Positions 42,166 through 47,248 of a stretch of 64,000 nt of DNA are shown here, one piece after another. This DNA is from Synechococcus sp. UW140. Its GTDB lineage: Bacteria; Cyanobacteriota; Cyanobacteriia; PCC-6307; Cyanobiaceae. The stretch lies in the NCBI RefSeq assembly GCF_900474295.1, contig NZ_UCOB01000028.1, forward strand, positions 62,001 through 126,000, in the 5' to 3' direction. Both the position numbers and the translations under genes were made by a program. The notes under the pieces are model-generated. The model made no database searches, was not told where the DNA came from, and saw only the letters and a list, made by a program, of their open reading frames with translations. Positions within the stretch are counted from its first letter, which is position 1, and the number at the start of each line of letters is the position of its first letter.

Positions 42166-45100
42166 ATGACCGTGACCGCCAGCAGCGGCAGCCCAAGGGT
42201 GACGCCCCAGCTCTTCGACACACTGCCGCTGTCCAGCGTGCGTCAGGCCGAACAGCAGGACCGCTTTCCTGATGGTGGCGAGCTCAACAACCTGATTACC
42301 TTTTTCCGGAGTGGTCAGGATCGGATTGAGGCATCAAGGGTTCTAGCTGACAACGCCGAAGCCATCGTGGCCAGGGCAGCCAATAAGATCTTTGCCGGAG
42401 GGACGCCTCTCTCCTTTCTGGAAGCACCGCTCAGCAGAGGGGAAGTACAGCTCCGAGACGGCACGGTGCTTGCATCCGACCAAGCAGCGTTCCAAGCGTC
42501 AATCGAGACTTTTACAGGAGCCAGTGCGGCAACAGGCGGTGGCAATGCCTTTACCCGCCTTCTGCGGGGAAGTAGCGAAGATGCTGACGTTCGAGTCGTT
42601 CTCCCGACCGGTTTCGCTCCGATCAGCGTGGCCAAATATGGCCCCGAACGCATGCGCAAATCGGTGCGTGACCTCGGCTGGTTCCTCCGTTATGTGGGCT
42701 ATGCCCTCGTGGCAGGAGACCCAAGCATTCTTTCGGTCAATACCCGCGGACTTCGCGACGTTCTTGAGAGGGGATGTTCGCTTGCTGCCACCAATGTGGC
42801 GCTCCAGGAGATGCGTGCTGCAGCCGCCAGCTTGCTGCGCGATCGGCCAGAAGCACGTGCGATGGCCGTTCAGTGTTTCAACGTGCTGCTCCAAGAGCTC
42901 GCCATCGCGACGCCCTCAAGCCGACAGAAACTAGGCAGTTCAGAACGTCAAGGTCTTCAATTACCAGCGATCTATGCCCTCGCTTCACAGGGCAAATCCC
43001 CTCGTTACAGCATCAAGCTGGGGATGAGTGGGGCTGAGCGTCAGGAAATCGTACGTGCCGCTTACCGCCAGGTTTTTGAACGCGATATCGCCAAGGGTTA
43101 TTCCCAGGCACCTTGTGGCCAAGAAGCCTCTCAGTTAGTCCAGGGCAAAATCTCTATGCGCGAATTCATTCGCGCCCTTGGGCGATGCAAGGAATACCGT
43201 CAGCAATTCCACGACAGGTTTGTGAACAGCCGAGTTGTTGAACTCGCTTATCGTCACTTCCTGGGCCGAGGGGTTAGCTCCCTCGAGGAATTCAAAACCT
43301 CATTTGCCATCCTCAGCGACCAAGGCCTCAATGGTCTGATTGATGTGCTTGTGAACTCCCGTGAGTACGCACAGACCTTTGGAGAAGAGACAGTTCCATT
43401 CCTGCGTGACCTTGGCGAAGAGGCCCAAGAAAGTGCTGGGTGGGGCTCGAACCGGAAGCTTTTCCGCTTCAGCGCACCTTTCGAGGGAGCTCCCCAATAC
43501 GTCACCCTTTACGCCTCTTATCGACAGCCTTTCGCTGATCAACACGTCTACGGAGGTGGGAATGATCCGATTGGCAATCAGTACGGTGCGATTTTCCCGA
43601 GTGGCACTGCTTCCGTAGCCACACGCCCAGCGCCCTATGGCTACGACAGCCGACGGCTGCTAGTCAGCAACGGGCTGGCCTCTCCAGGCCAGATGGACAG
43701 CGCTCAGTTCCGAAGCAGCCGTCCCCGCAAAGTCGGTCCCCGTGTGGTCCGACTTCAGCAGATCGCTACCGGCGGAGCAGCGCGTCCTCGGCGGGGTGGT
43801 TTGCCCAGCGTTCGAAATACGGAAGCCAGTACGCAATCGGTGATCAACGCTGTCTATGTGCAGGTTCTCGGCAATGCCGGCTATGCGGGTGAACGGGTCT
43901 CATCAGACGAAGCACGTCTAGAGAACGGCGACATTTCCCTGCGCGACTTTGTGCGGAGTGTTGCCCGTTCTGATGCCTTCCGGCGTCGCTACTGGAGCGG
44001 CCTCTACATCGCCAAGGCCATCGAGGTCATGCATCGTCGCCTCCTGGGCCGACCAACATTTGGTCGTTGGGAGATCGATGCTCTGTTTGATGTCGCGGCT
44101 CGCCAAGGCTTCTACGGTCTGATTGATGCCTTTATCAACAGCAAGGAATACTGCGATTGCTTCGGGGAAGACACCGCTCCCTATGAACGCTTCATCACCC
44201 CAGCCGATCTCAATACGCGGCGGGTTCCAACATGGAAGCAAGCCATCAATCTCGAAGCTCTTGCTTCTGGTACAAAGTCAGAGAGGCCTGAGGCCCAAAT
44301 CGTCGAGAGGCTCAAGACCAGCGGCGATCTCACACAGCGAAACATCCAGGGGGCCGGAGGTCCGATCAAATGGGAACAATCCTCATCCATTAACAATCGG
44401 AATAACGAGCAACTAACGTCGTTTGCTCTCACCAAGCAATTCAACAAAACGACTAAAGCAAAAACTCCATCCTGGCAAGCCAAGGTTGAGTTCAGAGGAA
44501 TCGTTAATCCCGAGATTCCTGGAGAAAAAATTCTTCAGGCCCTAAGGCGTAATGACATCAATGGCTTTGCAGCACGCGTTGGTCTGCAAACTTCGATTGA
44601 ATTAAAGCCACCATTTACGGAGGAAGCTCTTTCCTCCGTCATCGATGAAACCTATAGACAACTCCTCAATCGCATCCCATTCGATGACGAACGCTTAGTT
44701 GAAGCAGAGTCTCAACTCAGAAACCAGACAATCCCCCTTGTTGGTTTTATTGAAGCTGTTGCCCTGAGTGACACGTTCCAGAATCGTCTGAGCGCAATGG
44801 CTCCATTAAGAGCCGCTGCTGCAGTCAGCCTCGCCATTCTTGGTCGCGCTTCAACTCCTGGAGAAGCGGCTGAATTCGTTCAGACCAGAGCAGCCAATGG
44901 CCAACCCGCAGCCATTCGCAAGGTCTTCGAACGGCGCGAGGCCGATGATGCCAACCGCCTCCTCCAAATCAAACTTCCTTCCACGGATGGGCGGCAAAGC
45001 TTCAGAGAGCTGCAAACCACCAGGCAAGACAGCCTGCCAAGACCGATTGCTCCGGTGACACCGCCCATCTTCGAGGAAGATGGTGAAGCCAAAACAACCG

Positions 45101-45708
45101 CCCGCTTCAATGCGGTCAAGACCCAGGCCATTCAAGCGACTGCAGCACCTCTGCCTCCCTTAGCCAGAGCACTTGAGAGCAAAGACACCACAGGATTCCA
45201 ACGCAAAGCAGGGATCCCAACACCGATCCTTCTCAGTCCTCCCTTTAGCGAGGATGAATTAAGCGTTGCCATTGATGCGACCTATCGCCAACTCATCAAC
45301 CGCATCCCATTAGATAACGAGCGATTGACGAGCGCTGAATCACTGCTTCGCAATCAAGATCTGGACATTTCAGGCTTTGTTGAAGCAGTCGCCATGAGCG
45401 ATCTCTTCCAACAACGCCTCTCGAGCATGGCGCCCCTTCGCGCCGCATCAGCAGCCGCACTAGCCCTGCTAGGACGAGCAGCCACCCCTGCGGAAGTCGC
45501 CGAGTTCTTAAAGATTCGCGCTGGGTCTGGACAACCAGAAGCGGTCCGCTCGCTTCTGATGGCTGCAGAGTCCCTCTCCACAAATGAAGTCCCTCGCGTC
45601 CAAGGGATGGAGACAACTCCAGGCCAATCGCAATCAACAGTGATTCGCACAGCATCACTGTATCGAGGCAATTCAGCACTCAATCCCCCAAAAGATTCAG
45701 CGATCTAG
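42166..45708 (+). CDS. apcE: Phycobilisome core-membrane linker LCM
   Basis: ApcE holds the allophycocyanin core together, anchors it to the thylakoid and is the terminal energy emitter. The N-terminal phycobilin domain (about 1-240) has the chromophore Cys204 in LRDVLERGCSLAATNVALQEM. Linker repeats follow: REP1 about 287-408, REP2 about 554-672, REP3 about 815-911 and REP4 about 1026-1125. REP3 and REP4 are close to each other and differ from the first two, as if tandemly duplicated. At 1180 residues it is larger than the LCM of many marine Synechococcus. The ATG at 42166 (MTVTASSGSPRVTPQL) is chosen; a frame open back to 41989 adds 59 unrelated residues. It is followed by a terminator and then apcABC. 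Confidence 0.96.
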   Translation: MTVTASSGSPRVTPQLFDTLPLSSVRQAEQQDRFPDGGELNNLITFFRSGQDRIEASRVLADNAEAIVARAANKIFAGGTPLSFLEAPLSRGEVQLRDGTVLASDQAAFQASIETFTGASAATGGGNAFTRLLRGSSEDADVRVVLPTGFAPISVAKYGPERMRKSVRDLGWFLRYVGYALVAGDPSILSVNTRGLRDVLERGCSLAATNVALQEMRAAAASLLRDRPEARAMAVQCFNVLLQELAIATPSSRQKLGSSERQGLQLPAIYALASQGKSPRYSIKLGMSGAERQEIVRAAYRQVFERDIAKGYSQAPCGQEASQLVQGKISMREFIRALGRCKEYRQQFHDRFVNSRVVELAYRHFLGRGVSSLEEFKTSFAILSDQGLNGLIDVLVNSREYAQTFGEETVPFLRDLGEEAQESAGWGSNRKLFRFSAPFEGAPQYVTLYASYRQPFADQHVYGGGNDPIGNQYGAIFPSGTASVATRPAPYGYDSRRLLVSNGLASPGQMDSAQFRSSRPRKVGPRVVRLQQIATGGAARPRRGGLPSVRNTEASTQSVINAVYVQVLGNAGYAGERVSSDEARLENGDISLRDFVRSVARSDAFRRRYWSGLYIAKAIEVMHRRLLGRPTFGRWEIDALFDVAARQGFYGLIDAFINSKEYCDCFGEDTAPYERFITPADLNTRRVPTWKQAINLEALASGTKSERPEAQIVERLKTSGDLTQRNIQGAGGPIKWEQSSSINNRNNEQLTSFALTKQFNKTTKAKTPSWQAKVEFRGIVNPEIPGEKILQALRRNDINGFAARVGLQTSIELKPPFTEEALSSVIDETYRQLLNRIPFDDERLVEAESQLRNQTIPLVGFIEAVALSDTFQNRLSAMAPLRAAAAVSLAILGRASTPGEAAEFVQTRAANGQPAAIRKVFERREADDANRLLQIKLPSTDGRQSFRELQTTRQDSLPRPIAPVTPPIFEEDGEAKTTARFNAVKTQAIQATAAPLPPLARALESKDTTGFQRKAGIPTPILLSPPFSEDELSVAIDATYRQLINRIPLDNERLTSAESLLRNQDLDISGFVEAVAMSDLFQQRLSSMAPLRAASAAALALLGRAATPAEVAEFLKIRAGSGQPEAVRSLLMAAESLSTNEVPRVQGMETTPGQSQSTVIRTASLYRGNSALNPPKDSAI

Positions 45709-46026: not shown

Positions 46027-46512
46027 ATGAGCATCGTCTCCAACTCGATCATCAACGCGGACGCCGAAGCCCGCTATCTGAGCCCTGGCGAACTCGACCA
46101 GATCAAGGCTTTCGTTAACGGCGGCGAACGACGCCTGCGTGTTGCCCAGGTTCTCTGTGAGAGCCGAGAGCGCATCGTCAAGCAGGCTGGTGGTCAGCTT
46201 TTCCAGAAGCGCCCAGATGTCATCTCCCCTGGCGGCAATGCTTACGGTCAGGAAATGACCGCGACCTGCCTGCGGGACATGGATTACTACCTCCGCTTGG
46301 TGACATACGGCATCGTCGCTGGTGACATCACCCCAATCGAAGAGATTGGCGTGATTGGCGCCAAGGAGCTCTATCGATCCCTAGGCACCCCCCTCGAAGC
46401 CCTCGCAGATTCCGTGCGTGAAATGAAGACCGTCGCCATGGGCCTGCTGACCGGCGCAGACGCAGAGGAAGCCGGTTTCTACTTCGACTACGTGGTGGGC
46501 GCCCTCGCCTGA
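46027..46512 (+). CDS. apcA: Allophycocyanin alpha subunit
   Basis: A 161-residue biliprotein of the phycobilisome core. It starts [23 protein letters not shown], and Cys81 in [24 protein letters not shown] is the phycocyanobilin attachment site. The sequence is full length with no frameshift. apcB follows after 41 bases, so apcA, apcB and apcC form one operon. Confidence 0.98.
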
Positions 46513-46553: not shown

Positions 46554-47042
46554 ATGCAAGACGCCATCACCAACGTCATCAATAAGTCCGACGTCCAGGG
46601 CCTCTACCTGGACACGGCTTCGATGACCAGCCTTGAGTCCTATTTCTCCAGTGGTGAGCTACGCGTTCGTGCCGCAGCCACCATCAGCTCTAACGCTTCC
46701 GGCATCATCCGTGATGCCGTCGCCAAGGCACTGCTGTACTCGGACATCACCCGTCCAGGCGGCAACATGTACACCACCCGCCGCTACGCAGCGTGCATCC
46801 GCGATCTGGATTACTACCTGCGCTACTCCACCTACGCCATGCTGGCCGGTGACACCTCCATCCTTGATGAGCGTGTTCTCAACGGTCTGAAGGAGACTTA
46901 CAACTCCCTGGGTGTTCCCATCGGCGCAACCGTTCAGGCCATCCAGGCCATGAAGGAAGTTGTTGCCACACTCGTCGGTGCAGATGCTGGCAAGGAAATG
47001 GGCGTTTACCTGGATTACATCTGCTCTGGTCTCGGCAACTGA
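46554..47042 (+). CDS. apcB: Allophycocyanin beta subunit
   Basis: A 162-residue beta subunit that pairs with ApcA in the core trimers. Cys81 ([19 protein letters not shown]) binds the bilin and Asn71 in [12 protein letters not shown] is the site that is methylated in this family. It lies 41 bases after apcA and five bases before apcC. Confidence 0.98.
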
Positions 47043-47047
47043 GAACC

Positions 47048-47248
47048 ATGCGGTTGTTCAAAGTTACGGCCTGTATACCCAGCCCTGAGAAAGTGCGCAC
47101 GCAACGCGAGTTGCAAAACACTTTTTTCACCAAGTGGGTGCCCTACGACAGCTGGTTCGCTGAACAACAGCGAATCCAGAAGCAAGGTGGACGAATCATC
47201 AAGGTTGAGCTCTGCACAGGTGGCCGTCAGGTCAACGTGGGCAACTGA
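47048..47248 (+). CDS. apcC: Phycobilisome core linker LC (7.8 kDa)
   Basis: A 66-residue core linker that caps allophycocyanin trimers. MRLFKVTACIPSPEKVRTQRELQNTFFTKWVPYD and the final IIKVELCTGGRQVNVGN match ApcC over the full length. It is the last gene of the operon, with a strong terminator 28 bases downstream. Confidence 0.98.
   Translation: MRLFKVTACIPSPEKVRTQRELQNTFFTKWVPYDSWFAEQQRIQKQGGRIIKVELCTGGRQVNVGN

Follow-up and report, generated by a model that had tools for sequence, protein, structure and literature searches.

Introduction

Four linker repeats (REPs) in ApcE, the core-membrane linker (LCM) of the phycobilisome, have been in print since 2007 for Synechococcus CC9311 and RS9916, together with the proposal by Six et al. 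of extra half-cylinders and, from the four repeats, of a five-cylinder core (PMC2246261). The five-cylinder proposal presupposes that the repeats are equivalent to REP3 and REP4 of Nostoc. The step from repeat count to cylinder number was applied to thermophiles in 2023 (PMC10053587), and core REP3 is described as plugging a hexamer in the B cylinder and REP4 as plugging one in the C cylinder (PMC9205905, PMC8448738). Among the rod linkers, CpcN is described as a repeat-only linker lacking the CpcD domain, whose repeats chain phycocyanin hexamers (PMC10696076), and the REPs of Glr1262 have been located in phycocyanin hexamers (PMC12525769). Here, we analyze the apcE gene of Synechococcus sp. 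UW140, found on a stretch of 64,000 nucleotides (contig NZ_UCOB01000028.1, positions 62,001 to 126,000; hereafter the window). A preliminary description of this DNA, made from its letters alone, had read the four repeats of ApcE as a possible sign of a larger core than is usual for marine Synechococcus. We show that REP3 and REP4 are a tandem duplication, and we consider it quite probable that both derive from rod linkers of the CpcC/CpcN kind and not from core REP3 and REP4.

Results

The apcE gene occupies 42166..45708 on the + strand, as do all window features given below, and its open frame encodes 1180 amino acids. The preliminary description had assigned ApcE a bilin domain and four linker repeats, which was confirmed via a Pfam search that returned PF00502 together with four PF00427 stretches totaling 374.8 bits (cut-off, 28.7 bits). 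The N-terminal, phycobiliprotein-like bilin domain (42166..42900) scored 82.7 bits to PF00502, with its best stretch at residues 157-245. REP1 (43030..43407) and REP2 (43819..44190) are of core type, given that their PF00427 scores of 131 and 130.5 bits were accompanied by 232 bits to the coreR1 hidden Markov model (HMM) and 207 bits to coreR2, respectively, with the next best HMMs at 115 and 93 bits. REP3 (44617..44949; Pfam match, 44620-44940) and REP4 (45247..45594; Pfam match, 45247-45573) both fit the phycobilisome linker profile, at 62.3 and 69.9 bits, although far more weakly than REP1 and REP2 and with matches ending about 13 positions before the profile end; the top HMM of each was a rod linker. 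The residue ranges and the spacing of 211 residues first given for these repeats proved correct to within a few residues at each repeat start.

The proposed tandem duplication of REP3 and REP4 held at both the protein and the DNA level. In pairwise alignments of the repeat windows, REP3 and REP4 shared 59.5% identity over 111 amino acids, compared with 26.7-32.3% for the remaining fully aligning pairs; REP1 and REP4 aligned over 63 amino acids only (20.6%), and REP1 and REP3 over 24 only. Duplicated DNA, predicted near 44600 and 45240, was found at 44640..44696 and 45270..45326, where the two copies are 81% identical over 57 nucleotides with a period of 630 nucleotides, or 210 codons. The duplicated state is not general among relatives, since four repeats are present in 8 of the 31 genomes of the genus and three in 22, the last genome (G144) being too fragmented.

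The affinity of the third and fourth repeats was evaluated via an HMM contest on 27 Cyanobiaceae ApcE proteins, a hand-picked spread out of 90 loci. All 36 third and fourth REPs were top-scored by rod-linker models, with and without the tail that follows the repeat. In the window, REP3 scored 41 bits to the rod HMM as domain only and 40 with tail, and REP4 scored 51 and 62, whereas core HMMs reached at most 38. In the controls, core models scored best for all 48 of the divergent core REPs that had been held out (from 12 ApcE), the correct core model being chosen for 48 with tail and for 46 without; Cyanobiaceae REP1 and REP2 went to core models (16/16) and Cyanobiaceae phycoerythrin rod linkers to rod models (11/11). 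The third and fourth REPs of eight control ApcE went to rod HMMs in 12 of 12 cases.

The tails told the same story. Elsewhere in cyanobacteria, the tail is of the RFPTLPAANFPNT kind after core REP3 and RFPTLPAGNYLGS after core REP4, whereas the rod-linker form is RGF-QPGQ-FNRMFRLYRGYANSD and the tail of the Cyanobiaceae third repeat is LRGLRTAPGQPLTTVNRTAALYAGNAGL plus marine variants. The window ApcE has kept a rod-type tail after REP4 (RVQGMETTPGQSQSTVIRTASLYRGNSALN; 45595..45684), as indicated by a PDB search, tail motifs, and tail profile comparison, and has lost it after REP3. A tail profile of the Cyanobiaceae matched rod-linker tails with a probability of 93.8% and an E value of 1.8e-7, whereas no core or CpcG-like tail reached 1%, and 63 of 66 last-REP tails outscored the best of 158 core tails; for this test, an earlier rod-tail HMM had supplied the rod tails, and a loose VP anchor, missing in 12 of 78 ApcE that were thereby excluded, had served to select those of the Cyanobiaceae. 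The profile of REP4 tails from four-REP proteins likewise matched rod tails (probability, 88%; E, 2.8e-6). A PDB sequence search with residues 781-1180 ranked CpcN, Glr1262, and Glr2806 above any ApcE, with alignments extending into the tail, and it is the tail type that places these rod-type matches first. The CpcD-like domain PF01383 was absent among the Pfam matches of the window ApcE.

These observations bear on the published interpretation (PMC2246261), under which REP3 and REP4 would be fast-evolving orthologues of core REP3 and REP4, or a duplicated core REP3, within a Nostoc-type pentacylindrical core. The four PF00427 repeats, as in Nostoc ApcE, are what this interpretation calls for. 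The HMM contest and the tail type point to rod linkers instead, as does the spacer between REP2 and REP3, which measured 99-196 amino acids in all 78 Cyanobiaceae ApcE with at least three REPs and 73-80 in all 43 ApcE from other families. The core tail motif (FPTLPAANFPNT / FPTLPAGNYLGS type) occurred in none of the same 78 Cyanobiaceae proteins, compared with 35 of 43 elsewhere. In a tree of 56 repeats including tails, the Cyanobiaceae REPs were nested within the rod-linker clade (99/92), and union with core REP3, core REP4, or both was rejected, with losses of 85.0, 86.8, and 59.7 log units and approximately unbiased test P values (p-AU) of 3e-34, 1e-56, and 1e-5, respectively. Orthology to core REP3 and REP4 thus found no support in the HMM contest or the with-tail trees, although the domain-only tree did not reject it, and we consider the pentacylindrical interpretation quite unlikely.

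Several results weigh against a rod-linker origin. The tail-free tree kept the repeats among rod linkers at just 90/86 and did not reject core REP3/REP4 orthology (losses, 12.8-13.7; p-AU, 0.10-0.14). When rod linkers were left out of a wide REP tree, grouping the Cyanobiaceae repeats with core REP3 (P = 0.47) or with core REP4 (P = 0.19) was not rejected either; that tree failed to assign these repeats a position, and the trees including rod linkers replaced it. Domain-only profile-profile comparison favored CpcC over coreR4 by modest margins (95 versus 78; 135 versus 123), tail-only scores with ten rod linkers were weak (median, 2.5 bits, with 17 of 92 reaching 5 bits), and the branch leading to the Cyanobiaceae repeats is about one change per site long, so that long-branch effects are possible. 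An AlphaFold model of residues 691-1180, built on a shallow alignment of 16 rows, had a mean predicted local distance difference test (pLDDT) score of 49.6, with REP3 and REP4 partly at 70-83 and formed as helical bundles; Foldseek with this low-confidence model returned Glr1262 as the best match with several ApcE chains closely after, which is too weak for a call between rod and core. Our confidence in the rod-linker origin goes no higher than stated above because the tail-free tests are weaker and the branch is long.

In a tree of ApcE N termini, the proteins nearest to the Cyanobiaceae were the two-REP ApcE of two families (f10 and f11; support of 99 in the Shimodaira-Hasegawa-like approximate likelihood ratio test, SH-aLRT). 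The f11 ApcE is 705 amino acids long after trimming, and an ApcE of 705 amino acids, a two-REP length, is also present in the PDB entry 9wg7, whose title names the S. elongatus PCC 7942 bicylindrical core. Given that the nearest outside ApcE have two REPs, the simplest history is one in which a rod-type repeat was gained in the Cyanobiaceae and then underwent several losses and duplications.

The four-REP 3' half of the gene has itself moved between lineages. Four-REP genomes of the genus fall into group A (G000, which is the window genome, G129, and G125), within which the G129 ApcE is 98% identical to that of the window, and group B (G121, G101, G034, G133, and G134). Trees of the ApcE N terminus, of ten flanking genes (23 genomes), and of rpoB (30 genomes) placed group B beside three-REP sisters (G075, G142, and G145, and also G126, which was not in the rpoB tree) and group A elsewhere. 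In the REP tree, the 16 REP3 and REP4 sequences of both groups and the third repeat of G138 formed one clade (100/97; 92/56 in a smaller tree), and a duplication inside group B's own line was rejected (loss, 41.6; p-AU, 1.6e-5). Group B was nearer to its species sisters than to group A in 17 of 17 sequence windows through REP2 and, past REP2, nearer to group A in all 8 windows that could be compared, with identity to the sisters at 78-99% per window through residue 695 and 11-64% beyond. Maximum chi-square values of 67-152 over 20 comparisons placed the breakpoint at residues 550-687 over the full range; breakpoint estimates fell mostly at residues 618-690, the end of REP2 and the start of the following arm, which in the window corresponds to a zone at 44017..44235 as located from the group B relatives by the identity drop and maximum chi-square. 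In the single comparison that was permuted, the value was 134, compared with at most 27 in 1000 permutations (0/1000 as high). N termini, flanking genes, and rpoB follow the species and the C-terminal half does not, which on these alignments and trees identifies a four-REP 3' half that moved between lineages.

We considered that the common 3' half of groups A and B might descend from an old polymorphism whose alleles were sorted in different ways among the lineages, with no transfer. In its favor, the B clade contains close relatives in which alleles with four REPs and alleles with three are intermixed. The three-REP sisters of group B have a C terminus that fits the species tree, however, the group B C terminus groups with that of group A, and the polymorphism would have to persist over several species splits; we regard it as unlikely. 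If the transfer is preferred, this intermixing calls in addition for recombination inside the clade or for more than one transfer. Tree tests did not distinguish a single shared duplication from independent duplications in group A and group B (P = 0.15-0.42), which is a further point against the history that we favor. The spacer motif NRLLQIKL, located 3' of REP3 in the window (44953..44976) via motif comparison across Cyanobiaceae ApcE, is exact in 6 of the 8 four-REP ApcE of the genus, whereas no other Cyanobiaceae ApcE with at least three REPs has an exact copy, and this sharing leans toward a single duplication.

Repeat number varies across the family. ApcE above the threshold used was found in 62 of the 121 family genomes searched, with four REPs in 9, three in 43, two in 6, and an uncallable number in 4. 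Two-REP calls numbered 10 among 88 loci (L009-L096), of which just 6 were counted, as complete two-REP apcE genes with no third repeat downstream (G018, G045, G054, G068, G083, and G096). The other four were rejected, since in G107 and G084 the third repeat sits in the next open frame (a broken gene or an assembly error) and in G111 and G074 the gene runs to the contig end. The complete two-REP genes are nested among three-REP Cyanobiaceae at about four places, suggesting repeated loss of the third repeat.

Beyond the genus, four REPs were found in the genomes of five relatives of Candidatus Synechococcus spongiarum, in G119, and at locus L183. The loci L091 (G119) and L183 belong in or near genus g25; their REP3 and REP4 cluster with third repeats from RCC307-like genomes, so that a separate duplication probably took place in that line. 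In the spongiarum group (L092, L094, L199, L204, and relatives), REP3 is a second, less diverged rod-type domain that, as domain only, scored 155-163 bits to phycoerythrin rod-linker models versus at most 109 to core models and is 48% identical to a rod linker of the same genome; it was apparently recruited separately from the family's third repeat. An amplified block of rod-linker genes was also observed in a member of the same genus (G137:C1:533386-546279; loci L325, L332, L339, and L343), where five equal-scoring PF00427 rod-linker frames of 311 amino acids lie at a spacing of about 2437 bases, plus a sixth frame of 409 amino acids.

Six et al. asked in 2007 whether the extended LCM is restricted to chromatic adapters (PMC2246261). 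The window genome carries, at G000:C23 (L235:3094-8044), a complete island of the type IV chromatic acclimation (CA4) A type, with an mpeZ-like lyase, fciC, fciA, fciB, unk10, and unk14, in which the gene names were taken from order and length and the CA4-A function is predicted. The set of fciA-fciB-fciC, mpeZ-like lyase, and unk10 is present by gene order, that of the CA4-A island having been described (PMC3877281). Within the genus, intact FciA was found in 7 of 8 four-REP genomes versus 5 of 22 three-REP genomes (Fisher P = 0.0025, relatedness ignored; the fragmented G144, without FciA, was excluded). We rejected four repeats as a rule for the CA4 island, given that the four-REP genome G134 (93% complete) lacks FciA, that 5 of 22 three-REP genomes have it, and that it occurs in 0 of 6 four-REP genomes beyond the genus. 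The island thus does not require four repeats and is not strictly coupled to them; the association is a loose one, perhaps due to shared ancestry. An fciA remnant with two stop codons lies in a three-REP sister of group B (G075:C1:2255465-2255869).

Downstream of apcE in the window lie apcA (46027..46512), apcB (46554..47042), and apcC (47048..47248), the first two from the open reading frame list and all three named by recognition and gene order, with no family search. In the bilin domain, Cys204 is presumably the chromophore Cys, for which it is our candidate. The PF00502 domain, the core-type REP1 and REP2, and the clustering with these recognition-named genes identify the window ApcE as the core-membrane linker of a picocyanobacterium of family f1 (named marine Synechococcus and Cyanobium, i.e., Cyanobiaceae). 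The order apcE-apcA-apcB-apcC, which apcE heads, is described as that of marine Synechococcus (PMC10053587).

Discussion

Taken together, we regard as probable a sequence of events in which the ancestor would have had a two-REP ApcE, as in its nearest outside relatives, and a rod-linker PF00427 domain with its tail, lacking the CpcD-like cap domain, would have been joined to the ApcE C terminus. Several lines would subsequently have lost the extra repeat and a few, that of the window among them, would have duplicated it, and the four-REP 3' half would have passed between at least two marine lineages (A and B) with a break near the end of REP2. In this proposal, each PF00427 repeat would plug one phycobiliprotein hexamer cavity. 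With two ApcE per phycobilisome, every additional repeat would provide one more hexamer position on each ApcE, such that REP3 would supply the third hexamer position and REP4 a further pair. Given that PF00427 repeats plug hexamers in solved structures, REP3 and REP4 of the window very likely each hold one hexamer by analogy. These hexamers may be allophycocyanin, forming extra cylinders convergent with those of Nostoc, or phycocyanin, forming rod bases on ApcE. No Cyanobiaceae phycobilisome structure was recognized among the PDB matches listed.

The phycocyanin alternative, a functional version of the explanation we favor and compatible with the same history, holds that the extra repeats carry phycocyanin rod hexamers in a CpcN/CpcJ- or Glr1262-like manner, with a bicylindrical core and with REP number setting the number of ApcE-held rod hexamers. 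It draws on the rod-linker ancestry and tail, on the known chaining of phycocyanin hexamers by CpcN (PMC10696076), on the position of the Glr1262 REPs within such hexamers (PMC12525769), and on the two-REP nearest outside relatives, with 9wg7 titled a bicylindrical core. The long branch means that the binding partner could have changed, and the accepted picture is a tricylindrical core (PMC2246261); we therefore consider this alternative possible but doubtful. A bolder version, which we offer as a speculation of similarly low standing, is that picocyanobacteria swapped core REP3 for a rod linker, that each ApcE copy on a core of two cylinders carries rod-type hexamers, probably of phycocyanin and numbering one in three-REP and two in four-REP forms, and that the 3' half is an exchangeable antenna-size cassette spread by recombination among marine Synechococcus.

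The reading of four repeats as a larger core therefore stands only in part. The duplication is real, but REP3 and REP4 resemble rod linkers and look unlike their counterparts in pentacylindrical cores of the Nostoc type; convergence may still make the repeat-to-cylinder rule valid, although orthology gives no basis for it here. If the third and fourth repeats are indeed of rod type, the cylinder-count rule loses its footing in orthology across an aquatic family, repeat counting may mislead on antenna shape throughout the picocyanobacteria, and how the core is shaped in some of the most abundant phototrophs becomes a question open to direct testing. Our findings would also describe a domain transfer from rod linkers to a core linker and the exchange, between lineages, of one half of an antenna-core gene (the 3' half), the latter contradicting the 2007 view that the core evolves with the core genome and that rods alone evolve independently. 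In full-text searches of open-licence papers, supplements aside, we found no match for the rod-type origin of the Cyanobiaceae third repeat or for a mobile apcE 3' half.

Among known systems, the closest are the ApcE of Synechococcus CC9311 and RS9916, which likewise have four repeats, the RS9916 LCM being the slowest LCM band on gels (PMC2246261); as far as the accessible text of Six et al. goes, it counts the repeats and states neither a rod-type third or fourth repeat nor movement of the 3' half (PMC2246261). The pentacylindrical LCM of Anabaena/Nostoc PCC 7120 (7eyd) and Thermosynechococcus vulcanus (7vea) share with the window ApcE the bilin domain, REP1, REP2, the number of PF00427 repeats, and a similar length. 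In the sampled families outside the Cyanobiaceae, however, REP3 and REP4 are of core type with other tails and the short REP2-REP3 spacer given above, whereas in the window they are of rod type and the spacer is 142-143 amino acids. The two-REP ApcE of Synechococcus elongatus PCC 7942 (9wg7) shares the REP1-REP2 part with the window and lacks a third repeat. The rod linkers CpcC, CpcN of Anthocerotibacter, and Glr1262/Glr2806 of Gloeobacter have the same PF00427 type and a tail of the same RGF-QPGQ-FNR-LYRGYA kind as the window, and CpcN, like the window REPs, is without a CpcD-like domain (PMC10696076). Unlike in all of these rod linkers, the rod-type domains of the window are fused to a core-membrane linker.

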